Shown here piece after piece: positions 45,567-60,930 of a DNA stretch of 64,000 bases. Under the pieces are notes generated by a model. That model had not been told where the DNA came from and did not search any database. It worked only from the letters and a program-made list of their open reading frames with translations. Every line of letters starts with the position of its first letter. Position 1 is the first letter of the stretch. A program made the translations under genes and the position numbers. Source of the DNA: Bosea sp. 29B. Its GTDB lineage: Bacteria; Pseudomonadota; Alphaproteobacteria; Rhizobiales; Beijerinckiaceae. The stretch spans positions 2,325,408-2,389,407 of the forward strand of contig NZ_LR733817.1 of assembly GCF_902506165.1 (NCBI RefSeq), in the 5' to 3' direction.

Positions 45567-46502
45567 ATGAAGCGTTTTCTCGCAGGGATGATTGCTGCCG
45601 CCGCCATCGCGGTCGCAGGAGCGACGCCGAGCATCGCGCAGCAGACCAGGATCATCGTCGTCAGCCATGGCCAGGCCGCGGACCCGTTCTGGTCGGTGGT
45701 CAAGAACGGCGTCGCCAAGGCGGCGGCCGATCTTAAGGTCGCCGTCGATTATCGCGCACCCGAGACCTTCGACATGGTGGCGATGAGCCAATTGATCGAC
45801 GCCGCGGTGAACCAGAAGCCGGCCGGCCTCGTCGTCTCGATCCCCGACGCCTCGGCGCTCGGCCCGTCGATCCAGAAGGCGGTCGCCGCCGGCATCCCGG
45901 TGATCTCGATGAATTCCGGCTCCGATGTCTCGAAGAAGCTCGGCGCCCTCTTGCATGTCGGCCAGGACGAGTTCGACGCCGGCAAGGCCGCCGGCGAGAA
46001 GCTCGCCAGCATGGGCGGCAAGGTCGGCGTCTGCGTCAACCACGAGGTCGGTAATGTCGCGCTCGACCTGCGCTGCAAGGGCTTCGCCGAGGGCTTCAAG
46101 GGCAAGGTCACGGTGCTGCCGGTCTCGAACGATCCCTCCGAGATCCGCTCCAAGGTCAAGGCGGCGCTCTCCGACGCCAGCGTCGATACGGTGATGGCGC
46201 TGAGCGCCTCGCTCGGCGGCGAGCCGACCCTGGCGGGCGTCAAGGAAGCCGGCAAGATCGCCAGCGTCCGCGTCGCCACCTTCGATCTCTCGGCCAACTT
46301 CCTCAAGGCGATCGCGGCGGGCGAAGCCGCCTTCGGCATCGACCAGCAGCAGTTCCTGCAGGGCTACCTGCCGGTCGCCTTCCTGGCGCTGAACGCCGAA
46401 TACGGCCTCGTCCCCGGCGGCAATGTCCCCTCCGGTCCCAACCTCGTCACCAAGGAGAAGGCGGCCCAGGTCGTCGACCTCTCGGCCAAGGGCATCCGCT
46501 GA
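45567..46502 (+). CDS. Sugar-type ABC transporter substrate-binding protein
   Basis: This 311-residue periplasmic protein has a signal peptide ending at PSIAQ and the Peripla_BP_4 (RbsB-like) fold: RIIVVSHGQAADPFWSVVKNGVAKAA, LVVSIPDASALGPSIQKAVAAGIPVISMNSG and ATFDLSANFLKAIAAGEAAFGIDQQQFLQGYLPV. This resembles binding proteins for monosaccharides or polyols. It heads an operon with permease, ATPase and oxidoreductase, and AAGGGAGGATGAG precedes the ATG. Confidence 0.9.
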   Translation: MKRFLAGMIAAAAIAVAGATPSIAQQTRIIVVSHGQAADPFWSVVKNGVAKAAADLKVAVDYRAPETFDMVAMSQLIDAAVNQKPAGLVVSIPDASALGPSIQKAVAAGIPVISMNSGSDVSKKLGALLHVGQDEFDAGKAAGEKLASMGGKVGVCVNHEVGNVALDLRCKGFAEGFKGKVTVLPVSNDPSEIRSKVKAALSDASVDTVMALSASLGGEPTLAGVKEAGKIASVRVATFDLSANFLKAIAAGEAAFGIDQQQFLQGYLPVAFLALNAEYGLVPGGNVPSGPNLVTKEKAAQVVDLSAKGIR

Positions 46503-46575
46503 AGCGCAAGGCGGCGCCGGTCCGTCCGGCGCCGCCTGTCCTTCCCGGACGGTTCAGAAACCAACGAGGCGCGCC

Positions 46576-47724
46576 ATGGCCACATCGACCGCCGATCTCG
46601 CCGCGGGCCCGCCCCGTTCCACCGACCCGGCCGCAGAGGCCCGCGACGAGCGCTTGCGCCGCGTCTCGCTGATCGCCCGATTGATGCGCCGGCCTGAGCT
46701 TGGCGCGGTCGCCGGCCTCGTCCTGGTCACCCTCTTCTTCGGCCTGACCGCCAACCCGGCCATGTTCACGCTCGCCGGGTTGATGACCGTGCTCTCGCCG
46801 GCATCGCAGCTCGGCATCCTCGCCATCGCGGCGGCGCTGCTGATGATTGGCGGCGAGTTCGACCTCTCGATCGGCTCGATGATCGCCTTTTCCGGCCTCG
46901 TCTTCGGCGCGCTGATCGTCGTCGGCGACCTGCCGCTGCTGGCGGCGATCGTCGCGACCTTCGTCTTTGCCGGGTTGATGGGCGCGGTGAACGGGCAGAT
47001 CGTCATCCGCACCCGGCTGCCCTCCTTCATCGTCACGCTCGCCTTCCTCTTCATCCTGCGCGGGCTCTCGCTGGTCGGGCTGAAATGGGCGACCGGTGGC
47101 TCGACCCAGTTGCGCGGGATCGGTGACAAGGCGGGCGCAGGCATCGTGCGCGAGCTGTTCTCCGGCCAGGCGCTGGAGGGGCTGTTCGCCTGGCTGGCGC
47201 AGGCCAACTGGATCGCCAAGTTCCCGAACGGCACACCGACCGTGACCGGCGTCCCCGTCGGGGTCCTCTGGTTCCTCGCCATCGCGGCGCTCGCGACCTA
47301 TGTCCTGCTGCGCACCCGCTTCGGCAACTGGATCTTCGCTGCCGGCGGCGATCCCAATGCGGCTCGCAATTCCGGCGTGCCGGTGAACATGGTCAAGACG
47401 ACCCTGTTCGTGCTGACCGCCTGCGCCGCCACGCTCGTCGCCATCCTGACCGTGCTCGACGCCGGCTCGACCGATGCCCGCCGCGGCTTCCAGAAGGAGT
47501 TCGAGGCGATCATCGCCGCGGTGATCGGCGGCTGCCTGCTCACCGGCGGCTACGGCTCGGCGATCGGCGCCTTCTTCGGCGCGATCATCTTCGGCATGGT
47601 CTCGATCGGCCTGACCTACACCAGCTTCGACAGCGACTGGTTCCAGGTCTTCCTCGGCGGGATGCTGCTGCTCGCCGTGCTGTTCAACAACTTCATCCGC
47701 CGCAAGGCGACAGGGGAGCGCTGA
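46576..47724 (+). CDS. Sugar-type ABC transporter permease (RbsC/FrcC family)
   Basis: This is a 382-residue inner-membrane protein with about ten helices. The BPD_transp_2 family marks are [35 protein letters not shown] and [25 protein letters not shown]. It starts 73 bases after the binding-protein gene and ends two bases before the ATPase start, so it is coupled to the ATPase. Confidence 0.92.
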
Positions 47725-47726
47725 CC

Positions 47727-48521
<795 letters not shown>

Positions 48522-48571
48522 CGGCTGGCGATCATCCGGTCCTTCCTTCCTCTTCGCTACGGAGATTGCTC

Positions 48572-49684
48572 ATGCGCGCGCTCGGCGTCGGCCTGATCGG
48601 CACCGGCTATATGGGCAAGTGCCATGCCCTGGCCTGGAATGCGGTCGCGCCGGTCTTCGGCGACGTGTCGCGACCCAAGCTCGCGGTGCTCTGCGAGGTC
48701 GACGAAGTGCTGGCAGCCCAGCGGGCGGGCGAGTTCGGCTTCAGTGAGTCGACCGCCGACTGGAAGGCGCTCATCGCCCATCCCGATGTCGACGTCGTCT
48801 CGATCACCACGCCGAACACCTTCCATGCTGAGATGGCGATCGCGGCGTTGAAAGCCGGCAAGCATGTCTGGTGCGAGAAGCCGATGGCGACCAGCCTCGC
48901 CGATGCCGAGGCGATGCTGGCAGCGGCGAAGGCGGCCGGCACGGTTGCCGCCCTCGGCTACAACTACATTCAGAACCCGGCGATCCGGCTGGCGCAGCGC
49001 CTGATCGCCGATGGTGCGATCGGGCCGGTCAACCATGTCCGCATCGAGATGGACGAGGATTTCATGGCCGATGCCGGCGCGCTGTTCTCCTGGAAGAGCG
49101 AGGCAGCGTCGGGCCATGGCGCGCTCGACGATTTCGGCGTCCATGCCTTCTCGCTGATCAAGGTGCTGATCGGCGAGGTCGAGTCCGTCATGGCCGATAT
49201 GGCAAAGCCTTATGCCGAGCGGCCGCTCGCCGCCGGCGGCCAGCGTGCGGTCGAGACCCACGATATCGCCACGCTGCTGTTGCGCCTGTCGTCCGGCGCG
49301 TCCGGGCTCGTCGCGCTCAACCGTTCGGCCTGGGGCCGCAAAGGCCGGATCGCGCTGCAGGTCTTCGGCGCGAAGGGTACGATCGCCTATGATCAGGAGC
49401 GGATGAACGAGATCGAGCTTTACACCGCCGAGGGGAAAGCTGACGTCCAGGGCTTCCGCCGCATCCTCACCGCCCCGGCGCACGAGCCCTATGGCCGCTT
49501 CATTCCGGCGCCCGGCCATGGCCTCGGCTTCAACGAGCTCAAGATCATCGAATGCCGCGAATTGCTGCGCGCCATCGCCGGCGAGCCCGCGCATCTCCTC
49601 GACTTCGAGGCCGGCCTGCGCATCGAGCGCACGGTCGAGGCGGCAGCGAGGAGTTTCCGCGATGGGCGCTGGACGACAGTCTGA
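48572..49684 (+). CDS. Gfo/Idh/MocA family NAD(P)-dependent oxidoreductase
   Basis: This 370-residue protein has an N-terminal Rossmann fold (VGLIGTGYMGKCHALAW), the family's EKPMA motif with catalytic Lys (WCEKPMATSLADAEAML), and GHGALDDFGVHAFSLI, the substrate segment with catalytic Asp and His. It probably oxidises a sugar or polyol brought in by the ABC transporter of the same operon, for example an inositol- or glucose-type ring. It starts 50 bases after the ATPase gene with GGAGATTGCTC before the ATG. Confidence 0.9.
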   Translation: MRALGVGLIGTGYMGKCHALAWNAVAPVFGDVSRPKLAVLCEVDEVLAAQRAGEFGFSESTADWKALIAHPDVDVVSITTPNTFHAEMAIAALKAGKHVWCEKPMATSLADAEAMLAAAKAAGTVAALGYNYIQNPAIRLAQRLIADGAIGPVNHVRIEMDEDFMADAGALFSWKSEAASGHGALDDFGVHAFSLIKVLIGEVESVMADMAKPYAERPLAAGGQRAVETHDIATLLLRLSSGASGLVALNRSAWGRKGRIALQVFGAKGTIAYDQERMNEIELYTAEGKADVQGFRRILTAPAHEPYGRFIPAPGHGLGFNELKIIECRELLRAIAGEPAHLLDFEAGLRIERTVEAAARSFRDGRWTTV

Positions 49685-49705: not shown

Positions 49706-49752
49706 GTCCTGATCGCAAAAGTGGTTCCCACTTTTGCCGGACATGCTCTAGA
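49706..49752. repeat. REP-like palindrome upstream of marR-type gene
   Basis: AAAAGTGG (49717-49724) and CCACTTTT (49728-49735) form the core of an element ending in GACATGCTCTAGA. It is related in sequence to the element at 2203-2253. It separates the oxidoreductase stop from the marR-type promoter. Confidence 0.55.
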
Positions 49753-49757
49753 AATAT

Positions 49758-49773
49758 CGTTCGTATACGAACG
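49758..49773. promoter_or_regulatory. Perfect 16-bp palindrome, candidate MarR operator
   Basis: CGTTCGTATACGAACG is its own reverse complement and ends 10 bases before the marR-type ATG. Its core TTCGTATACGAA resembles the TTTGTATGCAAA and TTTGTACACAAA sites in the 53.3-53.65 kb promoter region. Autoregulation is likely. Confidence 0.75.
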
Positions 49774-49783
49774 AGGATCAGCG

Positions 49784-50239
49784 ATGGCGCGACCGAGCAG
49801 TGCGGCCGAGACGCCCGAACCCGCCGACGAGAGCTATGATCTCGCCGAGCAGGTCGGCTTCATAATGCGCCAGGCGGCGCAGCGCCATGTCTCGATCTTC
49901 AACGAGATCATGGGCAGCGACCTGACGCCGACGCAATGGGCAGTGCTGGCGCGGCTCTATCAGGATGGCGGCTCCTCGCAGAACCTGCTCGGACGCCAGA
50001 CCGCGATGGACGCTGCCACGATCAAGGGCGTGGTCGACCGTCTTCTCAAGCGCAAGCTGGTCCAGACCAAGCCCGACCCGGAGGATGGCCGCCGGCTCAT
50101 CGTCGAGCTCAGCCCGGCCGGCGTCGACTATACCCGCGAATTGCTGCCCAAGGCGGAGACGGTGACCAAGGTCACGCTCGCCCCGCTCGCGACCAACCAG
50201 CGGGCGACGCTGATCGCCTTGCTGAAGCAGCTGCGCTGA
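49784..50239 (+). CDS. MarR family transcriptional regulator
   Basis: This 151-residue protein has a winged helix-turn-helix of the MarR type: LTPTQWAVLARLYQDGGSSQNLLGRQTAMDAATIKGVVDRLLKRKLV, then the wing with DPEDGRRLIVELS. MarR proteins usually repress nearby catabolic genes and release DNA on binding an aromatic or acidic ligand. It lies beside the pyridine-type cluster, and its own upstream palindrome resembles those of that cluster, which makes it the candidate regulator. Confidence 0.9.
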   Translation: MARPSSAAETPEPADESYDLAEQVGFIMRQAAQRHVSIFNEIMGSDLTPTQWAVLARLYQDGGSSQNLLGRQTAMDAATIKGVVDRLLKRKLVQTKPDPEDGRRLIVELSPAGVDYTRELLPKAETVTKVTLAPLATNQRATLIALLKQLR

Positions 50240-50269
50240 ACCTCTTCAGGTCAATCCACACAAACGCTG

Positions 50270-50378
50270 GTCATCCCGGGCGACCGAAGGGAGACCCGGG
50301 ATCCATGCCTGAGCCTTTCCGATAAAGTTCAGGCATGGATCCCGGCTCTGCGCCGCTGCGCGGCTTGACCGGGATGAC
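50270..50378. repeat. Long intergenic inverted repeat between convergent genes
   Basis: CCGGGATCCATGCCTGA (50296-50312) and its exact complement (50329-50345) form a 17-bp stem with a 16-base loop. Outer partly matching arms GTCATCCCGG… and …CCGGGATGAC (50270 and 50378) extend the structure. This repeat type, built on GTCATCCCGG, is common in Hyphomicrobiales genomes and may terminate both convergent transcripts. Confidence 0.75.
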
Positions 50379-50403
50379 TCGCGTTTCGATTTTCGCGACG
50401 CGG

Positions 50404-52446
50404 CTAGCCGATCACGTAGCAGTCGCAACTCTCAGCCATCGCCTTCGCTTCATCGAGATCGCTCGAGGCGCTGGCGTGGATCGCGAAAAGCGGATCGCCC
50501 ACGGCAACTGCATCGCCGACATGGCGGCGCAAATCGATGCCCGCCGCCTTGTCGAAGGGCGCTCCGGCGCGCCTTGCAATACCGGCGACCGCCCAGCCGT
50601 CGATCTCCGTGACCGTGCCGGCGGTGGGCGAGCGTACGGTATGGACCAGCAGCCCTGGCGCCACCGGCGGCTCGCGCCGCCCCTGCGCATCGATGATCCG
50701 CTCGAAGGCGGCGCGCGCCGCGCCGGAGCGCAGCAATCCTTCAGCCCGCTCTCGCCCGGCCGCGGCCGAGCCGAGCGCCGGATCCCAGGCGAGGATGCGG
50801 CTGGCGAAGAACAGCGCCTTCTCGACCAGGTCGGCCGGCGCCTGCGGGTCGTTGTCGAGCACCCAGCCGACATCGCGGCATTCGAGTGCAGGGCCGATGC
50901 CGCGCCCGATCGGGCGGCTCCCATCGGTCGGAAAGGCGTTGACGACGAGGCCGAGCCCGGCGCCGACCGTCTCGAACAACTGCGCCAGCTCGGCGGCTTC
51001 CGCTTCGCTCTTCAGCTTGGCGCGCGGGCCATAGGGCAGGTCGACGATGACATGGGTCGAGCCGGCCGTGAGCTTCTTCGACAGGATCGAGGCGACCGAC
51101 CAGCGGTTCGAATCGATGCCGAGCGGCCGCGTGATCGCGTTCATCACGTCGTCGACGACGGAATGGTTGAGTCGCCCGTTCCAGGCGATGCAGCCGCGCG
51201 CCTTCTCCACGCAGGCGCGCAACTCGGCCGGGTTGAGCTCGACGCGGGCGAGCGCCTCCATCGCGTCTGCCGTGCCCGCCGCCGAGGTGATGGCGCGCGA
51301 CGAGGTCTTGGGCATCAGGAAGGCGCCATGCGCCGCGACGATCGGCACAACGATCAGCGTGATCCGGCTGCCGGGAATGCCGCCCATCGAATGCTTGTCG
51401 ACGACAATCCTGTCCGGCCAGGTGATTGTCTGGGCGAAGCGGCTGCGCACCCGCGCCAGCGCGACGACCTCGTCGTCCGTGAGCTTCTGCGTTGCCGCGA
51501 CCAGGAAGGCCGCGACCTCGCCATCGGGATAGCGGGCTTCGACGATGTCGCGGATCAGCGTGTGGTATTGCTCTTCGGTGAGCTCGCCACCCTGGATCTT
51601 GCGGGTCAGCGCTGCCCGGCTCTCGGGCGAGGGCGTACGCCGGAGCGTGACCTCGCTGCCTTCTGGCAGGCCGAGCTCGTCGAAAGCCTCGGCCGACAGG
51701 CCGATCTCGTCGCCGGCGAGCAGCGAGGGCAGGTCGATCACCTGCACATCCGAGCGGGTGCTGGCTGTGGCTCCCGAAATCTCCACCCGGCCTGGTCCGA
51801 GATAGTCGAAGCCGTTGACGATCTCGCCCTTGGCCGGGAGGTAGGCGCAGTGCGCCCGTCCCGCGAAGAGCGGCAGCCGGCGCAGGCGCATCGTGTTGGC
51901 CGCGGCCTCGACCGCGGCGATGAAGCGCTCGATGCCGATCTCGACGCTCTGGTCGTTGCAGATCGTCGCCGCCCGGATGCCTTCCGGGCGCGGCTCGACC
52001 GTGCGCGACAATCGCTTCTCGATCGCCTCGCCGCTCTCGCGTCCGCGCCCGGCGATGCGGGCTGCGAGCACTTCGGGCGGCGCCGTCACCTCGACCACGA
52101 CGAAACGCGGCAGGCGGCCAGCGAGCGCCGCGATCGTGGCACGCGAGCCATTGGCGATGACGTTGCGACCGGCCTCGACCAGGCGTTTCAGCTCGGCCGG
52201 CAAGCCGTAGCGCAGGCCGTGGGCGCCCCAGGTGATCAGGAAATCGCCCTTGGCCTCGCGTGCGTCGAAGGCCTCGTCCGTCGCCGCCTCATGGTCCTCC
52301 CCCGGCGATCCGGCCGGGCGGGTGACGACACGGCGCGCGAAGACATAGCGACCGGTCGGCTCCAGCAGGGCGCGGGCGCCGTCGATCAGCGAGTCCTTGC
52401 CGGCCCCGCTCGGGCCGACGATCAGGAAGAAGGTACCGGGCCGCAT
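50404..52446 (-). CDS. Fusion of ribose 1,5-bisphosphokinase (PhnN) and AMP-phosphorylase-type enzyme
   Basis: This is one uninterrupted frame of 680 residues. Residues 1-184 are a complete PhnN-like kinase (P-loop GPSGAGKDS, then FARRVVTRPAG); PhnN converts ribose 1,5-bisphosphate plus ATP to PRPP. Residues 186-680 are a complete thymidine-phosphorylase-superfamily enzyme of the archaeal AMP phosphorylase type, with DKHSMGGIPGSRITL (350-364), PKTSSRAITS (379-388) and GTADAMEAL (391-399). AMP phosphorylase releases ribose 1,5-bisphosphate from a nucleoside monophosphate. The two halves therefore catalyse consecutive steps: NMP to base plus PRPP. Met186 could also start a separate phosphorylase. 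It lies six bases after the nadC-like gene in the same operon. Confidence 0.85.
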   Translation of the reverse strand: MRPGTFFLIVGPSGAGKDSLIDGARALLEPTGRYVFARRVVTRPAGSPGEDHEAATDEAFDAREAKGDFLITWGAHGLRYGLPAELKRLVEAGRNVIANGSRATIAALAGRLPRFVVVEVTAPPEVLAARIAGRGRESGEAIEKRLSRTVEPRPEGIRAATICNDQSVEIGIERFIAAVEAAANTMRLRRLPLFAGRAHCAYLPAKGEIVNGFDYLGPGRVEISGATASTRSDVQVIDLPSLLAGDEIGLSAEAFDELGLPEGSEVTLRRTPSPESRAALTRKIQGGELTEEQYHTLIRDIVEARYPDGEVAAFLVAATQKLTDDEVVALARVRSRFAQTITWPDRIVVDKHSMGGIPGSRITLIVVPIVAAHGAFLMPKTSSRAITSAAGTADAMEALARVELNPAELRACVEKARGCIAWNGRLNHSVVDDVMNAITRPLGIDSNRWSVASILSKKLTAGSTHVIVDLPYGPRAKLKSEAEAAELAQLFETVGAGLGLVVNAFPTDGSRPIGRGIGPALECRDVGWVLDNDPQAPADLVEKALFFASRILAWDPALGSAAAGRERAEGLLRSGAARAAFERIIDAQGRREPPVAPGLLVHTVRSPTAGTVTEIDGWAVAGIARRAGAPFDKAAGIDLRRHVGDAVAVGDPLFAIHASASSDLDEAKAMAESCDCYVIG

Positions 52447-52452
52447 CTTTGC

Positions 52453-53286
52453 TCAGGCTTCGTCGAGGCCGATATCCACCGCCGGCGCCGACTGGGTGAT
52501 CTTGCTGGTCGAGATGTAGTCGACACCGGTCCTGGAGATCGGGCCGATCGTGTCGATGTTGATGCCGCCGGAGGCCTCGACCTTGGCGCGGCCGGCGATC
52601 AGTTCGACCGCCTTGGTCATGTCGGCGACCGACATGTTGTCGAGCATGATCACGTCGGCGCCGGCCTTGGCGGCCTCTTCGACCTGCTCCAGCCGATCGC
52701 ACTCGACCTCGAGCTTGGTCAGCACCGGCAGCTTCTTGCGGGCGCGTTCGACGGCGGCGGTGATGCTGCCGCAGACGGCGATGTGGTTGTCTTTGATCAT
52801 CACGCCATTGTCGAGGCCGAGGCGGTGGTTGAGGCCGCCGCCGCAGGTCACGGCGTGCTTCTCCATCATGCGCAAGCCGGGCGTGGTCTTGCGGGTGTCG
52901 ATCAGGCGCGCCTTGCTGCCGGCCATGGCGGCGGCGTAGCGGGCGGTCTCGTTGGCGATGCCGGAAAGGCGCTGGGCGATGTTGAGCGCGGTGCGCTCGG
53001 CAGTGAGCACGCTGCGGGCAGAGCCCTCGATCTCGACCAGGATCGCGCCCTTCTCGACCTTGTCGCCGTCCTTGACGCGCAGGGTCACCTTGAGCTCGGG
53101 GTCGTAGCGCTTGAACACGCGGGCCGCGACCTCGACGCCGGCGACGATCATCGGCTCGCGGGCGTTCATGTGGAACTTGCCGGTCTCATTCGGCTCGATC
53201 ATCACCTGGACGGTGAGGTCGCAGGCGCCGATATCCTCGACAAGCCAGTGGTCGATCAGGCGGTCCGTGGCGAAGACGTCATACAT
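52453..53286 (-). CDS. nadC: Nicotinate-nucleotide diphosphorylase (carboxylating), NadC family
   Basis: The 277-residue protein is a full-length type II phosphoribosyltransferase of the quinolinate group: TALNIAQRLSGIA, RLIDTRKTTPGLR, KHAVTCGGGLNHRLGLDNGVMIKDNH and LEVECDRLEQ. It would join quinolinate to PRPP and release CO2, giving nicotinate mononucleotide. nadC normally sits with nadA and nadB; here it opens an operon with the PRPP-forming fusion gene, under a palindromic operator. It may be a catabolic paralogue with altered specificity. ATG 53286 has GGGAGAGAGGG upstream. Confidence 0.88.
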   Translation of the reverse strand: MYDVFATDRLIDHWLVEDIGACDLTVQVMIEPNETGKFHMNAREPMIVAGVEVAARVFKRYDPELKVTLRVKDGDKVEKGAILVEIEGSARSVLTAERTALNIAQRLSGIANETARYAAAMAGSKARLIDTRKTTPGLRMMEKHAVTCGGGLNHRLGLDNGVMIKDNHIAVCGSITAAVERARKKLPVLTKLEVECDRLEQVEEAAKAGADVIMLDNMSVADMTKAVELIAGRAKVEASGGINIDTIGPISRTGVDYISTSKITQSAPAVDIGLDEA

Positions 53287-53325
53287 GGCAGGGCCCTCTC
53301 TCCCGCGGCGATGCCGCTCCAAACA

Positions 53326-53341
53326 TGTTTGTATGCAAACA
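53326..53341. promoter_or_regulatory. Candidate operator near the nadC-like start
   Basis: TGTTTG-TATG-CAAACA, a 6-bp inverted repeat 40 bases upstream of the nadC-like ATG. It shares the TTGTAYRCAA core with the other two sites in this region. Confidence 0.65.
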
Positions 53342-53459
53342 ATAGCAGCGGGAAAATTTGGCTGTCAATGCGCCATTGATGCCGTGCGTGCAACCAGCAA
53401 TCACGTCATCCAGAGGTCATCTCCGCCGGGTAGAAATCCTGCCTGATGGCGCCACAAAT

Positions 53460-53477
53460 AATCTTGTATGCAAGATT
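53460..53477. promoter_or_regulatory. Candidate operator, middle of the divergent region
   Basis: AATCTTG-TATG-CAAGATT has 7-bp arms. The core TTGTATGCAA is identical to that of the site at 53326-53341. Confidence 0.65.
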
Positions 53478-53627
53478 GGGCGGCCGTACCTCCTCTTTGC
53501 CGACGAATCAGCGCGAGCGCGGCCCAGGCGGCTGAGGTCGTGGGCCAATCCCGGAATCGGGCGTAGAGTGGGCGCTGTCTCACGCCTCGCCGCTGTCTTG
53601 ACTTGGTCTAAGAGGCGCGCCAGTATC

Positions 53628-53641
53628 GTTTGTACACAAAC
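53628..53641. promoter_or_regulatory. Candidate operator near the reductase-like start
   Basis: GTTTG-TACA-CAAAC, 37 bases before the ATG at 53678. It keeps the TTGTAYRCAA core as TTGTACACAA. Confidence 0.65.
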
Positions 53642-53677
53642 AAAATCCTTAAGACCCGCTCTGCGGGAGGATCAAGC

Positions 53678-55162
53678 ATGGCGCTGGACGAAGCGAGCCC
53701 GGTCGCGGACGACAAGATCCGCTGCGATGCCTGCCCGGTGATGTGCTTCATCAAGCCGGGCGCCGTCGGCGCCTGCGACCGCTACGGCAATGTCGACGGC
53801 GAGCTGGTGCGGATGGAGCCGCATATCGTGCTCGAGCGCACGCTGGAGCATGGCGGCGAAATCGTTCCCTTCGCCGGATCGCGCGAGTGGGACGGCGAGA
53901 TCGTGCACCAGCAGGGTACCTTCATCACCGCGATCGGCGCCGGCACAACCTATCCCGACTACAAGCCGGCCCCGTTCATCGTCTCCTCGCAGGTTGACGG
54001 CGTCGACATGGTCACCGTCGTGACCGAGGGCATCTTCAGCTATTGCGGCGTCAAGGTGAAGATCGACACCGACCGCTTCCTCGGCCCGGAACAGGCGACG
54101 GTGCGCGTCGAGGGTGAGGCGATCGGCCACGTCACCACCGGCGAATACGGCTCGCAGATGCTTTCGCTCGGCGGCGTCCACCACCTCACCGGCGGCTCGA
54201 AGAAGGAGGGCCGCGTCACCTGCGACGCGCTGCTCCAGCTCAGCAACGGCAAGGCGGTCGAGCTCACCATCGACGAGGGCGAGACTGTCATCGTGCAGGC
54301 CGGCAAGCCGCCGATCGTCAACGGCATCCAGGAGAGCCGGATGCGCGTCGGCTGCGGCTCGGCGACGATCGGCATCTTCGCCAAGCAATGGCATGGCAAG
54401 GTCGACGAGGTCGTCGTCGTCGACGACCACATCACCGGCGTGCTCTCCGAGCATCAGGCCGGCAAGCTGCTCGGCATGGCCGGCACCGGCATCAAGATGA
54501 AGGGCCGTCGCTCGACGCCCGGCCGCTATTTCCAGGTGGCGCAGCCCGGCACCGGCTGGGGCGGCACCAATATCAGCGATCCGCTGACCATTCTCGGTCC
54601 GTTCGATCCCAAGGTCGCCTATCCCGGCCTGCGTCTGCTGATGGTCTCGACCACCGGCGAGCACGCCGCCTATTACGAGCTCGACGAGAACCTTCAGCCC
54701 GTCGAGACGCAGATGCCGCAGCCGCTGGTCGAACCGGTCGAGCGCATCGCCGAGAATTGCGAGCCGGCGCTCTCGACCGTGCTGTTCATCGGCGGCGCCG
54801 GCGGCTCGCTGCGTGCCGGCGTCACCGAGAATCCGGTCCGCCTGACCCGCTCGGTCAAGGATGCGCTGACCTATGTCACCTGCGGCGGCGCGCCGGTCTA
54901 TATCTGGCCGGGCGGCGGCATCACCTTCATGGTCGACGTCACCCGCCTGCCCGAGAACGCCTTCGGCTATGTGCCGACGCCGGCGCTGGTCGCGCCGCTC
55001 GAATTCACCATGAGCCTGACCGATTACGAGGCGCTTGGCGGCCATATGGACGCGATCCAGCCGCTGGCTTCGCTCAAGGGCGGCAGCCGCCTGCGCTTGC
55101 CGCAGCGCCCGGACAATCCCTGGCCGTTGGCGCCGGAGCAGCCGCGCCGCTCGCTCGGCTAG
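53678..55162 (+). CDS. 6-hydroxynicotinate reductase-like protein
   Basis: The 494-residue protein begins with a four-Cys motif typical of an Fe-S cluster, Cys16-x2-Cys19-x3-Cys23-x9-Cys33 (CDACPVMCFIKPGAVGAC), followed by a long region with several Gly-rich segments (LFIGGAGGSLRAGVTENP, YIWPGGGITFMVDVT). It matches what I recall as the 6-hydroxynicotinate reductase family, first known from anaerobic nicotinate fermentation, where the pyridine ring is partly reduced. Its occurrence in an aerobic-type alphaproteobacterium suggests another ring substrate or role. GGGAGGATCAAGC precedes the ATG. The UPF0280 gene starts four bases after its stop. Confidence 0.75.
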   Translation: MALDEASPVADDKIRCDACPVMCFIKPGAVGACDRYGNVDGELVRMEPHIVLERTLEHGGEIVPFAGSREWDGEIVHQQGTFITAIGAGTTYPDYKPAPFIVSSQVDGVDMVTVVTEGIFSYCGVKVKIDTDRFLGPEQATVRVEGEAIGHVTTGEYGSQMLSLGGVHHLTGGSKKEGRVTCDALLQLSNGKAVELTIDEGETVIVQAGKPPIVNGIQESRMRVGCGSATIGIFAKQWHGKVDEVVVVDDHITGVLSEHQAGKLLGMAGTGIKMKGRRSTPGRYFQVAQPGTGWGGTNISDPLTILGPFDPKVAYPGLRLLMVSTTGEHAAYYELDENLQPVETQMPQPLVEPVERIAENCEPALSTVLFIGGAGGSLRAGVTENPVRLTRSVKDALTYVTCGGAPVYIWPGGGITFMVDVTRLPENAFGYVPTPALVAPLEFTMSLTDYEALGGHMDAIQPLASLKGGSRLRLPQRPDNPWPLAPEQPRRSLG

Positions 55163-55166
55163 GCCG

Positions 55167-56054
55167 ATGTGGGAGAAGCCCTCCGCGCGGATTCTGCCGG
55201 ATGGCAGGCGCCTGCTCCTGCAGCAGGGGCCGATCGATCTCGTTATCGAGGCGGTTGGCGAGCAAAGCGCGGTCAAGGCCGCGCATGAGGCGGCCATCCT
55301 GCGCTTCGACGGTCTGCTTGCCGAACTCTGCGACGAGTTGAAGCTGCTGCGCACCGCCGTCAGCAGGACGAGCCCGCTGCCGCTCGGCCCAGTCGCCAGG
55401 CGCATGCATGCGGCGGTAGCTCCCTTCGCTGAGACCGGCTTCATCACGCCGATGGCGGCCGTCGCCGCCTCGGTCGCGCAGGAAATCCTCGGCGTGATGT
55501 GCCAGGCCGCGCCGCTCTCCCGCGCCTATGTCAACAATGGCGGCGATATCGCCCTCTATCTCGCTTCCGGCGAGCAGTTCCGTATCGGGCTGGTGAAGCG
55601 GCCCGATCGGCCGGAGTTCTTCGCCACCGCGACGATCCGGCCCGAGGACGGCGTCGCCGGCATCGCCACATCCGGCTATCCCGGCCGCAGCTTCTCATTG
55701 GGGATCGCCGAGGCGGTGACCGTGCTGGCGCCCACCGCGGCCATGGCCGATGCCGCCGCGACAGTGATCGCCAATGCGATCGATTTACCGGGCCATGCCG
55801 CAGTCGAGCGCCAGCCAGCCAGTTCCATCCAGAGCGACAGCGACCTTGGCGAGCGACTAGTCACCCGCCATGTCGGCCCGCTTGCCACCGGCGAGATCGA
55901 GACCGCGCTCGCCGCCGGCGTCGCTGAGGCGGAGCGCCTGCGCGCCACAGGCCTGATCGTCTCGGCCGCCATGCATCTTCAGGGCGTGAGCCGCACGCTT
56001 CCCACGCCTATGATCGTTCAAGAAGACCCCGAGAGGAGACTTGCCCGTGCCTGA
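55167..56054 (+). CDS. UPF0280 family protein (ApbE-like fold)
   Basis: This 295-residue protein has the UPF0280 pattern: DLVIEAVGE, PMAAVAASVAQEIL, AYVNNGGDIALYL, GIATSGYPGRSFSLGIAEAVTVLA and AAAATVIANAI. The family is related in fold to the flavin transferase ApbE, and the NNGGDIAL and AxAxATxIANAI segments resemble ApbE's FAD- and metal-binding regions. A role in attaching or handling flavin for the upstream reductase-like protein is a reasonable inference, unproven. It overlaps the first DUF1185 gene by eight bases. Confidence 0.82.
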   Translation: MWEKPSARILPDGRRLLLQQGPIDLVIEAVGEQSAVKAAHEAAILRFDGLLAELCDELKLLRTAVSRTSPLPLGPVARRMHAAVAPFAETGFITPMAAVAASVAQEILGVMCQAAPLSRAYVNNGGDIALYLASGEQFRIGLVKRPDRPEFFATATIRPEDGVAGIATSGYPGRSFSLGIAEAVTVLAPTAAMADAAATVIANAIDLPGHAAVERQPASSIQSDSDLGERLVTRHVGPLATGEIETALAAGVAEAERLRATGLIVSAAMHLQGVSRTLPTPMIVQEDPERRLARA

Positions 56055-56631
56055 GATCGCCGTCCGCAAATACGCCGTGACCGTCGAGGAGATCCATCAC
56101 GAGGGCGGCCCGGCCGCTGCGGTTCCGCTGAAGCGCGGCGCGGCGCTGGCCGTGATCGCCAACCCCTACGCCGGCCGCTATGTCGAGGACATCCAGGGCT
56201 TCATGGATGATCTGAAACCCTTCGGTCTCGCCATGGCGCAGCGCCTGCTCGCCGCGATGGGCGGCGATGCCAAGGCGATCCAGGGCTATGGCAAGGGCGC
56301 CATCGTCGGCGCCGCCGGCGAGCTCGAGCACGGCGCGCTCTGGCATGTACCGGGCGGCTACGCCATGCGCGAACTGCTGGGCGATGCCAAGGCGATCGTG
56401 CCTTCGACCAAGAAGGTCGGCGGCCCCGGCACGCGCCTCGACATCCCCGTCACCCACGTCAACGCGTCCTATGTCCGCAGCCATTTCGACTCCTTCGAGA
56501 TCGGCATCACCGACGCTCCCCGCGCCGACGAACTGCTGTTTGCGCTGGTGATGACGACCGGGCCGCGCATCCACGCCCGCGTCGGCGGGCTCAAGGCGAG
56601 CGAGATCAAGGGCGAGGACGGCCTGCGATGA
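56047..56631 (+). CDS. DUF1185 ('amino acid synthesis') family protein, first copy
   Basis: This 194-residue protein has the DUF1185 pattern AVIANPYAGRYVEDIQGFM, KAIQGYGKGAIVGAAGELEHGALWH, NASYVRSHFDSFEIGITDAPRADE and the end GEDGLR. The family name is historical; no activity is known to me. The start is probably GTG 56047, with GAGAGGAGAC upstream, rather than TTG 56041. It overlaps the second copy by ATGA at 56628-56631. The conserved Asn, Gly-Lys and His residues suggest an enzyme. Confidence 0.82.
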   Translation: MPEIAVRKYAVTVEEIHHEGGPAAAVPLKRGAALAVIANPYAGRYVEDIQGFMDDLKPFGLAMAQRLLAAMGGDAKAIQGYGKGAIVGAAGELEHGALWHVPGGYAMRELLGDAKAIVPSTKKVGGPGTRLDIPVTHVNASYVRSHFDSFEIGITDAPRADELLFALVMTTGPRIHARVGGLKASEIKGEDGLR

Positions 56632-57212
56632 AAGCCAGGATCCGCAAGATCGTCACCGTCCTCGACGAGACCCATAGCGAGCTTGGCCGTGCCGTCTCGC
56701 CGCCGATCAAGCGCGCTGCCGCCGTCGCGGTGATCGCCAATCCCTTCGCCGGCACCTATCAGGATGACCTCTCCGAGCTGATCGATATCGGCGAGGAGCT
56801 CGGCGACCTGCTCGGCCGCCATGCGCTGGCGGCGCTCGGCATCGAGGGCGAGGCGGTCCAGGGCTATGGCAAGGCCGCCGCCGTCGGCGAGGACGGCGAA
56901 CTGGAGCATGCCGCCGCGATCCTGCATCCCAAGCTCGGCGCGCCCCTGCGCAAGCTGCTCGGCAAGGCGCCGGCCCTGATCCCGTCCTCGAAGAAGCGAG
57001 GCTCGCTCGGTGTCGTCCTCGACGTGCCGCTCGGCCACAAGGCCGCGGCCTATGTCCGCAGTCATTTCGACGGCATGGAAGTGCGCATTCCCGACGCGCC
57101 GCGCGCCGGCGAGATCGTCGTCGCGGTCGCCCTGACTAGCGGCGGCCGGCCCTTGCCGCGCGTCGGCGGGCTCACCCATGCCGAGGCGAAGGGCGAGGAC
57201 GGTTTGCGGTAG
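56628..57212 (+). CDS. DUF1185 ('amino acid synthesis') family protein, second copy
   Basis: This 194-residue paralogue is exactly the same length as the first copy. Shared blocks are AVIANPFAGTYQDD, VQGYGKAA, GELEHAAA, AYVRSHFDGMEV, DAPRAGEI and GEDGLR, while the regions between differ widely, so the duplication is old. Tandem retention with coupled translation suggests a hetero-oligomer whose subunits both keep the pocket residues. It is the last gene of the operon. Confidence 0.82.
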   Translation: MKARIRKIVTVLDETHSELGRAVSPPIKRAAAVAVIANPFAGTYQDDLSELIDIGEELGDLLGRHALAALGIEGEAVQGYGKAAAVGEDGELEHAAAILHPKLGAPLRKLLGKAPALIPSSKKRGSLGVVLDVPLGHKAAAYVRSHFDGMEVRIPDAPRAGEIVVAVALTSGGRPLPRVGGLTHAEAKGEDGLR

Positions 57213-57792: not shown

Positions 57793-58572
57793 CTAGCTGC
57801 GTAGCGCGCCCGGCCCGGCCACAGCGCCGGGCGGGCATTTGCCGGAAATAATCATGCCCAGCACTTCGTCCTGCGTGACGTCGCGGACATGGGCGGTGCC
57901 GACGACCTTGCCGTTCTTCATCACGCTGACGCGGTCGGCGAGGTCGAAGACATCGTGCAAATCATGGCTGATCAGGAAGATGCCGATGCCCTGCTTCTTC
58001 AGCTCGAGGATGAGGTCGGCGACCTGCTTGGTCTCGGCCGGGCCGAGCGCTGCGGTCGGCTCGTCCATGATCAGCACCCGCGCGTCGAAATAGATCGCGC
58101 GGGCGATCGCGACCGACTGGCGCTGGCCGCCGGAAAGCGCCTTCACCGGCTCCTTGAAGCGGCGGAAATGCGGGTTGAGCCGGCCCATCACCTTGCGGGT
58201 CTCGGCCTCCATCGCGCTGTCGTCGAGCGTGCCCCAGGAGGTCAGGAGCTCGCGACCGAGGAAGATGTTAGCAGCGGCGTCGACATTATCCGCCAGAGCG
58301 AGCGTCTGGTAGATCGTCTCGATGCCGTGGCGCTTGGCGTCGCGTGGGCTGGAGATCGCGACAGGCTCGCCGGCGATCCTGATCTCGCCGGCATCGGCGC
58401 GATAGGCCCCCGACAGGATCTTGATCAGCGTCGACTTGCCGGCGCCGTTATGGCCGAGCAGGCCGACGACCTCGCCGGCATGGAGATCGACGCTCGCATG
58501 GTCGACGGCCTTGATGCCGCCGAAGGCGATCGAGATCTCGCGCATCTCGACGAGGGGCGTAGTTGCGTCCAT
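57793..58572 (-). CDS. xylG: ABC transporter ATP-binding protein, XylG-like (single domain)
   Basis: This 259-residue protein is one ABC domain with Walker [10 protein letters not shown], signature [15 protein letters not shown], Walker [12 protein letters not shown] and switch His in SHDLHDV. It is the single-domain form; E. coli XylG is a double-domain protein of about 510 residues. It is downstream of xylH and xylF in the same direction, with an 11-base gap. Confidence 0.88.
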
Positions 58573-58583
58573 GGCGCCCTCCT

Positions 58584-59888
58584 TCAGCCCAGCCGCTTGC
58601 GATAGAGCCCGTCGAGCCAGACGGCGAGGACGAGCACGATGCCGACGACGATGTTCTGCAGCGGAGTGTCGACGCCGATCAGCACCATGCCCGACTGCAG
58701 CGACTGCATCACCAGGGCGCCCAGCATCGCGCCGGCGATGGTGCCGACGCCGCCGGCGAGCGAGGTGCCGCCGATCACCGCCGCGGCGATGACATAGAGC
58801 TCGTCGAGCTGGCCGGCCGAATTGGTCGCGGCATTGAGGCGGGCGGTCGAGATGCAGGCGGCGATGCCGACCAGCATGCCCATCAGCCCGTAGACCAGCA
58901 TCAGCACTTTGCGCGTATTGACGCCGGAGAGCTGGGCTGCCTCGGGATTGCCGCCGATCGAGAAGACATAGCGGCCGAAGCGCAGGCGCCGCGCCAGGAA
59001 GCTCATGGCGACGCCGACCGCGAGCGCCAGCAGCACCGGCACGGCAAGGCCATGGCCGATCACGAGCCCGCCCTCGGGCCAGCTTCCGCCCTTCGCCTCG
59101 ACGAGGCGGCGGGCGACACCGGCCGGCAGGGCATAGGCATTGGCGATCGCGACCGCGCCGATCACCGTGCCGCAGGCGAGCGCGGCGAGCACGATCTCGG
59201 CCCAGAGCGGGCGCAGGGCGAAGCCATAACGCTTGCGCCGGCGCCGCGCGAAGCCGATGCCGGCAACGATCAGGGCGCAGATGACGAGGCCGATCGCCCA
59301 GGAGGCGGTGGTGCCGATCGCCCCCTCGATGCCGCCGCCGAGCGGGCGGAAGCGCGAATCCATCGGCGCGATGGTCTGGCCCTGCGTCACCCACCAGGCG
59401 CCGCCGCGCCAGACCAGGAGCCCACCGAGCGTGACGATGAAGGAGGGGATGGCGAGATAGGCGATCAGCGCGCCCTGGAACAGGCCGATCAGCCCGCCGA
59501 GCGCGACCGCCGCCGCGATCGAGATCAGCCAGGTCGCCGGATGCTCGAAGCCGATCAGATCGGGCAGCAAGCGGGCCTGGATGAGGCCGGTGACCATGCC
59601 GACGAAGCCGAGCATCGAGCCGACTGAGAGGTCGATATTGCGGGTGACGATGACCAGAACCATGCCGCAGGCCATCACCGCAACCGAAGCGGTCTGGACC
59701 GAAAGGTTCCAGAGATTGCGCGGCGTCAGGAAGGCGCCGCCCGAGAGCCAGTTGAAGCCGAGCCAGATGGCTGCCAGCGCGGCGATCATGCCGACCATCC
59801 GCGCGTCGAACTCGATCGCGCGCAGATGATCGGCGAACGTCTTCACATCCTGCGACGGCGCTGCCGGCGCGGGTGCAGCTTCAGTCAC
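58584..59888 (-). CDS. xylH: ABC transporter permease, XylH-like
   Basis: This 434-residue inner-membrane protein has about 12 hydrophobic segments. The sugar-permease marks are [57 protein letters not shown] and [21 protein letters not shown]. The long form with an extra central loop is typical of XylH. It overlaps the end of xylF by eight bases. Confidence 0.88.
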
Positions 59889-60930
59889 AGGCCTTGACCT
59901 TGCCGGCGGCGACGCCCTGGCAGACGGCGGCCTTCGGCGCCCAGCCGGCGTCGATCACCACGCCGAGATTGTCCTTGGTCACCGGAACCGGCTTCAGGAA
60001 CAGCGCGGTCATCTTGGCCTTGCTCGGGCCCTGGTCCCAGCTGGTCGTGCCGGCGATATCGGTCAGCTTGGCGCCGCCGGCGAGTTTGATTGCGATCTCG
60101 CCGGCATTGCGCCCGAGCTCGCGCGCATCCTTCCAGATCGTCACTGTCTGAGTGCCGAGTGCGATACGGTTCAACGCGGCGCGGTCGGCATCCTGGCCGG
60201 TGACCGGGACCGAGCCGGCGAGCCCCTGGGCGGTCAATGCCGCGATCGCGCCACCGGCCGTCCCGTCATTGGCGGCAACGACGACATCGACCTTGTTGGC
60301 GTTGCGCGTCAGGATCTGCTCCATATTGCGCTGGGCATTCGCCGGCAGCCAGTTGTCGGTGAAGGCCTCGCCGATGTTCTTGATCTTGCCTGCGTCGATG
60401 GCGGGCTTCAGGATTTCGATCGAACCATTGAAAAAGAAGGCGGCGTTGGGATCGGCGCTCGAGCCCTTGATGAAGGCGTAGTTGCCCTCTGGCTTCGCCT
60501 TCAGGATCTCGCGCGCCATCATCCGGCCGACTTCGACATTGTCGAAGGTCAGGTAGAAAGCCTGCGGGATCTCGATCAGCCGGTCGTACCCGACCACCGG
60601 AATGCCCTCGTCGACCGCCTTCTGCACCGCCGGGCGGATCGCCTGCGCATCCTGCGCCAGCACGATGATCGCCTTGGCGCCGCGGGCGATCAGGCTCTCG
60701 ACATCGGTGAGCTGCTTGGCCGGCGAGGATTGGGCGTCGGCCGAGAGATAGGTGCCGCCGACCTTCTCGATCGCGGCCTTGATTGCCGCCTCGTCGGTCT
60801 TCCAGCGCTCCTCCTGGAAGTTCGACCAGCTGACCCCGATCACCGGGCCCTTGCTCTGGGCGAAAGCGGGGAATGCGCTGCCGAAGGCCGCGAGCGCGAA
60901 GCCCGCGGCGAGAAAATGGCGTCTCAACAC
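59881..60930 (-). CDS. xylF: D-xylose-type ABC transporter substrate-binding protein XylF
   Basis: The 349-residue periplasmic protein has a signal peptide ([25 protein letters not shown]) and the XylF pattern: [71 protein letters not shown] and [14 protein letters not shown]. The ERW, GYDRLI and GQDAD segments carry the D-xylose ligands in known XylF proteins. It heads the xylFHG operon. No xylose isomerase, kinase or regulator gene is adjacent in the window. Confidence 0.92.

Follow-up and report, generated by a model that had tools for sequence, protein, structure and literature searches.

What does a gene for quinolinate phosphoribosyltransferase (nadC) do when it is paired with a gene that fuses a PhnN-like kinase to a nucleotide phosphorylase? 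This question is raised by a locus of Bosea sp. 29B, located at positions 49758-57212 of the 64,000-nucleotide stretch analyzed here (the window, C1:2325408-2389407), in a genome with 7 contigs, 6.33 Mb and a completeness of 100. We predict that the locus codes for the opening reactions, and for some of the intermediate ones, of a quinolinate breakdown route in which phosphoribosyl pyrophosphate (PRPP) is recycled. On sequence evidence, this reading is assigned a probability of roughly 0.78. A preliminary description had interpreted the locus as a PRPP-regenerating conversion of a quinolinate-like acid to its decarboxylated base. That interpretation is supported, with corrections concerning the hydroxylase, a dual role of nadC and a prior report of gene adjacency.

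The proposed cycle and its genes

In the proposed cycle, NadC would convert quinolinate and PRPP into nicotinate mononucleotide, CO2 and pyrophosphate. The phosphorylase half of the fusion would use phosphate to cleave nicotinate mononucleotide, releasing nicotinate and ribose 1,5-bisphosphate, which the PhnN half would convert with ATP into PRPP and ADP. The net reaction would be quinolinate + ATP + phosphate -> nicotinate + CO2 + ADP + pyrophosphate, with PRPP being recycled. Gene content, conservation and linkage were observed; from these we infer every reaction, chiefly the phosphorolysis of nicotinate mononucleotide. For a charged pyridinium riboside, phosphorolytic cleavage should be favourable. 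Nicotinate would then be hydroxylated by a molybdenum enzyme, for which this genome has a candidate gene about 40 kb from the locus and relatives have one within the cluster. The Hnr-like protein would reduce 6-hydroxynicotinate to 1,4,5,6-tetrahydro-6-oxonicotinate, and an enamidase would open the latter. UPF0280 may mature Hnr. Beyond this locus, and a little less firmly, we consider it likely that PRPP serves as a recycled decarboxylation carrier in a nadC-fusion cassette of alpha-, beta- and gammaproteobacteria, often accompanied by carboxylate importers, which feeds nicotinate breakdown.

The minus strand contains nadC and, 6 bases downstream of it, the fusion gene, on which the marR gene converges. 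Divergently from nadC, the plus strand carries an hnr-like gene, a UPF0280 gene and two DUF1185 genes. All of these had been named in the preliminary description and are present where it had placed them. The features are as follows.

49784-50239, plus strand: MarR-family regulator (PF12802, 47.3 bits, and PF01047, 42.8 bits, both above cut-off)
50404-52446, minus strand: PhnN/phosphorylase fusion, 680 amino acids (TIGR02322, NF003338, TIGR02645)
50407-51891, minus strand: phosphorylase half of the fusion, residues 186-680; nicotinate is the proposed base (NF003338, TIGR02645)
51907-52446, minus strand: PhnN-like half of the fusion, residues 1-180; predicted PRPP-forming ribose 1,5-bisphosphate kinase (TIGR02322)
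52453-53286, minus strand: nadC, quinolinate phosphoribosyltransferase, 277 amino acids from ATG (TIGR00078, PF01729, PF02749)
53326-53341, unstranded: operator-like near-palindrome 1, upstream of nadC
53461-53476, unstranded: operator-like near-palindrome 2, in the middle of the promoter region
53628-53641, unstranded: operator-like near-palindrome 3, upstream of the hnr-like gene
53678-55162, plus strand: Hnr-like protein, 494 amino acids, putative 6-hydroxynicotinate reductase (names of relatives, gene clusters)
55167-56054, plus strand: UPF0280 protein with an ApbE-like fold (NF003322)
56041-56631, plus strand: DUF1185 protein 1 (PF06684, 241.2 bits, cut-off 27)
56628-57212, plus strand: DUF1185 protein 2 (PF06684, 236.4 bits, cut-off 27)

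Pairing of nadC with the fusion

The pairing was followed by searching one genome per species, the query being an alignment of 24 fusions. Among the best 80 loci of a longer list, 26 hold a fusion and 53 a stand-alone phosphorylase; L069, a contig-end fusion piece from the genome of L037, was excluded from both sets. In the 26 fusion loci, nadC is found on the 5' side of the fusion wherever the contig permits. When five Bosea stretches and three plasmid loci are added, nadC is present in 33 of 34 fusion loci, the exception (L015) starting 139 bases from a contig end. Of 63 loci tried, 55 allowed the gap between both genes to be measured (the other eight are seven nadB-linked nadC genes and L015). 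The gap is 1-49 bp in 54 of the 55 and 1010 bp in one. Six of these loci come from genomes already represented; once they are left out, 48 of 49 distinct loci have a gap of 1-49 bp. In the stretches examined around the 53 stand-alone phosphorylases, nadC is near in one (L036), and these control loci have no hnr, UPF0280 or DUF1185 gene beside the phosphorylase (0 of 53). The named relatives of the fusion are mostly from Bosea.

The order nadC-fusion-TctC is found on a plasmid of Variovorax sp. SRS16, and the order TRAP-nadC-fusion on a plasmid of Pacificitalea manganoxidans. TctC matches occur in 8 of the 34 fusion loci, one of them being weak (26%).

The two halves of the fusion

The fusion looks intact in both halves. 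Its PhnN half scores 184.7 bits against TIGR02322 (cut-off 156), and its P-loop (GPSGAGKDS, at residue 11) has a G, K and D that are invariant in alignment A1 (24 rows). The phosphorylase half scores 593.7 bits against NF003338 (cut-off 434) and 455.4 bits against TIGR02645 (cut-off 434.6). It matches PDB 4ga5 (E 3.5e-80) and contains PKTSSRAITSAAGTAD, which is mostly invariant in A1 and which we take to be the phosphate-binding motif. With 385.5 bits, it stays below the cut-off of the AMP phosphorylase model TIGR03327 (535). Thus, this half, named AMP phosphorylase in the preliminary description, is more safely called a phosphorylase of the AMP/thymidine family.

Sixteen positions consistently separate the 26 fusion-type from the 53 stand-alone phosphorylase domains; some of them are located at the presumed base pocket. 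The fusion type has N423 (stand-alone: G), H428 (L), N436 (I) and W449 (Q; three fusions have L). Archaeal AMP phosphorylase has G, L and I opposite N423, H428 and N436. N436 is aligned with a tyrosine of pyrimidine-nucleoside phosphorylase that is presumably a base-pocket residue. The differing positions fit a changed base; they do not name it.

The stand-alone genes, filed as "thymidine phosphorylase family", belong to the same family (42-48% identity) and are also paired with a PRPP-making enzyme. They differ from the fusion by lacking the PhnN half, by rarely having nadC nearby and by the domain differences described above. A relative of ribose-phosphate diphosphokinase is encoded at most 3.5 kb from the stand-alone phosphorylase in 49 of 53 loci (one representative was scanned: NF005537), a hint at a separate PRPP-making pair. 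The window's genome also codes for a second, stand-alone phosphorylase of this family outside the window (C1:2749099-2750556, plus strand; 41% identity to the fusion half).

The fusion occurs in two builds. In L017, L019-L024, L048, L054 and L057, a match is lacking to approximately residues 186-272, which precede the phosphorylase core. This segment is kept in alphaproteobacterial fusions; the builds without a match are all or mostly betaproteobacterial.

NadC and NAD synthesis

The NadC protein encoded in the window scores 326.3 bits against TIGR00078 (cut-off 198.4) and has both the PF01729 and the PF02749 domain. Its best solved relative is PDB 1x1o (E 1.9e-66). The start methionine is conserved in 42 of 45 fusion-linked rows; a TTG at 53322 is an alternative start. 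In a tree of 57 NadC sequences, a single clade (support 95/92) unites 41 of the 44 fusion-linked rows, which come from alpha-, beta- and gammaproteobacteria. The other branch (95/92) holds nine nadAB-linked rows and three of four other rows. The fusion-linked L171, L182 and L185 are placed outside the main fusion-linked clade. L192, with a very long branch, was kept in the tree and excluded from the residue comparison given below. Fusion-linked nadC would thus mostly be a dedicated copy.

The requirement for nicotinamide adenine dinucleotide (NAD) was considered in a genus sample of 61 genomes, including that of the window; all counts are without kinship correction. Fusions were taken from among the matches listed by E-value, with full-length fusions at the top. 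The fusion is present in 28 genomes (in G059 only as a contig-end piece), and nadC adjoins it in 28 of 28. nadC exceeds the cut-off in 35 of 61 genomes. Of 30 nadC loci read, 23 adjoin the fusion and seven adjoin nadB; five further ones adjoin the fusion by coordinates. nadA was found in 10 genomes, namely the seven with nadB-linked nadC and three with a fusion (that of the window, G008 and G049). 3-Hydroxyanthranilate dioxygenase exceeds the cut-off in 28 of the 61 genomes, 11 of them with a fusion. The two sources of quinolinate that were looked for, nadA and this dioxygenase, are both missing from 16 of the 28 fusion genomes. In the sample as a whole, nadA is absent from 51 of 61 genomes and any nadC above the cut-off from 26, so that most of them look dependent on outside pyridines for NAD.

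Such figures invite a different explanation. In cells devoid of nadA (25 of the 28 fusion genomes of the genus sample and 17 of the 26 scan fusion genomes, at least three of which are also in the genus sample), NadC might salvage quinolinate for NAD, and the fusion might degrade nucleotides like AMP, remaking PRPP for NadC. The archaeal relatives of the phosphorylase half (PDB 4ga5 match) are active on AMP. NadC of Bordetella serves quinolinate salvage, and nadC-phnN adjacency has been read in this way (PMC11452294). We consider this explanation unlikely for four reasons. (i) Nicotinate phosphoribosyltransferase is encoded in 59 of the 61 genomes and in 27 of the 28 with a fusion, so that NAD can be made without NadC. 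(ii) Seven of the 26 scan fusion genomes have nadA together with two nadC genes, and the extra nadC is not needed for NAD. In total, nadA is found in nine of the 26 and two nadC above the cut-off also in nine, the second copy adjoining nadA in six; in the Pseudomonas with two nadC genes, nadA is on another contig, and the two partial nadC pieces in G084 are probably a single gene split between contigs. (iii) The stand-alone phosphorylases, with their PRPP-synthetase relative nearby (49 of 53), differ consistently from the fusion type. (iv) Salvage leaves the clustering with molybdenum hydroxylase, Hnr and enamidase unexplained.

Link to nicotinate breakdown

The preliminary description proposed to search genomes for co-occurrence of the fusion with a second nadC and the hnr block. 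The outcome was positive: across genomes, the fusion accompanies a dedicated nadC and genes of nicotinate breakdown, in some relatives within a single cluster. In the genus sample, Hnr is found in 27 of 28 fusion genomes versus 8 of 33 others (Fisher p 3e-9, uncorrected for kinship). Among the 26 fusion loci of the scan, which were not selected for these genes, eight (L004, L005, L011, L012, L024, L044, L048 and L057) have hnr, enamidase or a molybdenum hydroxylase with more than 50% identity.

Several arrangements are contiguous. In L011 and L012, from alphaproteobacterial metagenome-assembled genomes, genes for molybdenum hydroxylase, hnr, UPF0280, nadC and the fusion are consecutive. L004 has, in sequence, the end of an enamidase gene, a large (NicB-like) hydroxylase gene, two DUF1185 genes, UPF0280, hnr, nadC, the fusion and marR. 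The betaproteobacterial loci L024 and L048 combine nadC-fusion with an enamidase-like gene, hnr, UPF0280, DUF1185 and a TctC gene. Two relatives within Bosea, G022 and G029 (loci L197 and L198), have the fusion, nadC, enamidase, a molybdenum hydroxylase pair (small and large subunit), two DUF1185 genes, UPF0280 and hnr together in stretches of 13.5 and 15 kb.

In the genome of the window, the enamidase is encoded at C1:2421197-2422480 (PDB 2vun, E 2.4e-107 over residues 43-422). Directly behind it are genes for a [2Fe-2S] subunit and for a 1174-residue molybdenum/cytochrome c subunit with molybdenum domains and three CXXCH motifs. This enamidase-linked pair presumably resembles Pseudomonas NicAB. 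These genes are 40.6 kb from hnr, and the genome codes for several other molybdenum hydroxylases (20 match pieces).

Identity of the acid

Eight NadC residues (R110, R144, K145, H166, R167, K177, E207 and D228), which we take to bind quinolinate and PRPP, are common to the 45 fusion-linked rows (at least 95%) and to 12 other NadC rows (at least 90%). The identity of these catalytic residues in fusion-linked and nadAB-linked NadC favours quinolinate itself as substrate. A second indication is an importer. According to Sorci and colleagues, the Bordetella TctC proteins Bug27 and Bug69 are binders of quinolinate (dissociation constant about 0.1 uM; PMC11452294). These data support quinolinate as an imported substrate.

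It is quite improbable that the same cycle acts on a relative of quinolinate, such as 6-hydroxyquinolinate, so that the released 6-hydroxynicotinate would feed Hnr directly. This would suit the window, where no hydroxylase gene lies between the cycle genes and hnr, and also the 36 listed positions at which fusion-type NadC differs from other NadC, some of them near active-site motifs. The presumed carboxylate- and PRPP-binding residues are, however, alike in both NadC groups, and molybdenum hydroxylase genes are part of the cluster in L004, L011, L012, L197 and L198.

Points weighing against quinolinate breakdown

Several observations weigh against quinolinate breakdown with recycled PRPP. The substrate of the phosphorylase cannot be read from the sequence, and the base-pocket positions are presumed from known structures. 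The preliminary description had Hnr reduce the base released by the cycle. The hnr gene is indeed linked, but the scheme lacked a hydroxylase step. Hnr-type enzymes act on 6-hydroxynicotinate (PMC3511419, PMC9304392), so that the product of the cycle has to be hydroxylated before Hnr can use it. That the candidate molybdenum hydroxylase acts on nicotinate is deduced from neighbouring genes. Its best solved relatives are aldehyde-oxidizing: the 1174-residue subunit matches nicotinate dehydrogenase (3hrd_B) with E 6.5e-25, and aldehyde dehydrogenase subunits score higher. In 18 of the 26 unselected fusion loci, no hnr, enamidase or related molybdenum hydroxylase was found in the examined stretch, and L197 and L198 had been picked for their hnr gene, whose distance of 10-12 kb from the fusion was known beforehand. 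One fusion genome, G031 (92% complete), lacks Hnr. Eight genomes carry Hnr without the fusion, so that Hnr is independent of it.

Finally, nadC in the window's genome is the sole copy found, and the genome also has nadA-nadB (at C1:3.82 Mb, unlinked to nadC at 2.38 Mb). As there are nadA-nadB genes and no other nadC was found, the window's nadC very likely serves NAD synthesis here as well, and it probably has a double role in breakdown and NAD synthesis. A role as an ordinary NAD gene only was rejected on the basis of the clade, the pairing with the fusion and the second copies elsewhere; it is kept as a likely second role. The preliminary description had looked to another nadC with nadAB, of which only nadA-nadB was found. 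It had regarded a sole nadC, combined with blocks that are not neighbours elsewhere, as speaking against the cycle; the first holds for this genome, the second is contradicted by relatives.

Alternatively, the proximity of nadC-fusion to the hnr block could be fortuitous, or the two could have no more than a regulator in common, with the fusion acting as a general nucleotide salvage enzyme. This would agree with those 18 of 26 loci and with the many Bosea fusions that are far from hnr, but it is very improbable given the Hnr co-occurrence (27 of 28 versus 8 of 33, kinship uncorrected), several differing contiguous arrangements (L004, L011, L012, L024, L048, L197 and L198) and operator-like sites shared by both arms.

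Relation to known systems

A description of the proposed cycle was not found in searches of an open-access library; subscription papers were mostly outside this search. The front end is considered new, whereas the enzyme families and the downstream pathway are known. Nicotinate breakdown via 6-hydroxynicotinate has been described for Eubacterium barkeri, Azorhizobium and strain SG-6C, and relatives of the Bosea locus have the same cluster of Hnr-like protein, enamidase and molybdenum hydroxylase. That pathway, as described, begins at nicotinate, whereas here the nadC-fusion pair is placed in front and quinolinate is the proposed start (PMC3511419, PMC9304392).

De novo NAD synthesis by NadA, NadB and NadC involves the same NadC reaction, from quinolinate and PRPP to nicotinate mononucleotide. 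In contrast to the de novo genes, fusion-linked NadC mostly forms its own clade, occurs mostly without nadA and, in six genomes, exists beside a nadA-linked nadC.

Quinolinate salvage in Bordetella shows the same grouping of nadC, phnN and a TctC binding protein. In the 2024 paper, bug27 is described as adjoining nadC and phnN in Variovorax and Jezberella, and this is read there as NAD synthesis; thus, nadC-phnN adjacency is not new (PMC11452294). In the main text of that paper, "phosphorylase" and words starting with "catabol" have 0 occurrences.

The phosphorylase half is related to the archaeal AMP phosphorylase of the Thermococcus route (PDB 4ga5) and would likewise yield ribose 1,5-bisphosphate. 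Unlike in Thermococcus, the TIGR03327 cut-off is missed, and ribose 1,5-bisphosphate would be converted to PRPP by PhnN instead of being passed to RuBisCO. The nearest principle is found in phosphonate breakdown by C-P lyase, where the substrate is carried on ribose phosphate and cleaved, and PRPP is remade by PhnN. Both the chemistry and the genes are different there; the neighbours of the fusion described here are nadC and marR.

Quinolinate is a breakdown product of tryptophan and a neurotoxin. If correct, the proposed route would provide a genetic basis for its use by bacteria. It would give NadC a role outside NAD synthesis, so that nadC alone would be no proof of NAD synthesis, and it would assign a function to a fusion currently filed as "phosphonate metabolism protein PhnN". 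It would also be a rare case, besides C-P lyase, of ribose phosphate as a recycled handle for breakdown.

Hnr, UPF0280 and DUF1185

The Hnr-like protein matched no Pfam or NCBIfam model, and its predicted structure has a confidence (predicted local distance difference test, pLDDT) of 41. All 8000 scored candidates were relatives; among the 120 listed, many are named "6-hydroxynicotinate reductase" and others "hypothetical protein". From these names and the clusters with molybdenum hydroxylase and enamidase, the protein is a putative 6-hydroxynicotinate reductase. In some Bosea genomes (L136; G004, G006, G011 and G024), Hnr is contained in an unbroken frame of 1506-1769 codons. The frame in L136 also holds the end of a molybdenum hydroxylase, which suggests a hydroxylase-Hnr fusion protein. 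A ferredoxin-NADP reductase-like gene, recognized by eye near enamidase (L165:11969-12742 and L197:6057-6830, both minus strand), might feed electrons to Hnr.

UPF0280 scores 387 bits against NF003322 (cut-off 290) and stays below the cut-off of the ApbE model PF02424 (20.8 versus 25.6 bits). It adjoins hnr in all 30 hnr loci read (35 were found). With its predicted structure (pLDDT 91), Foldseek retrieved 2o34, itself UPF0280-like, followed by FmnB/ApbE flavin transferases (best E 2e-5, template modelling score about 0.3-0.5). The 6-hydroxynicotinate reductase of E. barkeri reportedly carries a covalent flavin. It is tempting to speculate, from this resemblance in fold, that UPF0280 is a flavin transferase or maturation protein for Hnr; the proposed route, if correct, would make such a role testable.

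DUF1185 protein 1 matches PDB 3byq (E 2.2e-60). The fold of DUF1185 is chorismate-mutase-like, and no reaction has been assigned to it (PMC2954203). The idea that DUF1185 takes the place of enamidase was dropped, since relatives hold both in one cluster and the window's genome has an enamidase.

Regulation and flanking genes

The shared palindromes of the preliminary description correspond to three near-palindromes in the nadC-hnr promoter region, with the cores TTGTATGCAA (two copies) and TTGTACACAA. These exact 10-mer cores have no further copies in the window. Among 11 Bosea genomes with the same arrangement, a pattern search found three sites kept in nine, one site in one and none in one. 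The MarR gene could have a longer frame, starting from GTG at 49721. Relatives of this regulator (36-51% identity) directly adjoin nadC or hnr in L108, L112 and L135 and are at most about 5 kb away in L011 and L018. Both arms may be under joint control of the MarR-type regulator and the three operator-like sites that they share.

No support was seen for counting the flanking sugar-type ABC transporters as members of the locus. These sets are encoded on both sides (45567-49684 and 57793-60930), and the best models for their binding proteins are rhizopine and xylose. Near nadC-fusion, an FRG-domain protein is encoded in L006, L010, L018, L019, L020, L057 and L203 (one representative scanned, one annotated).

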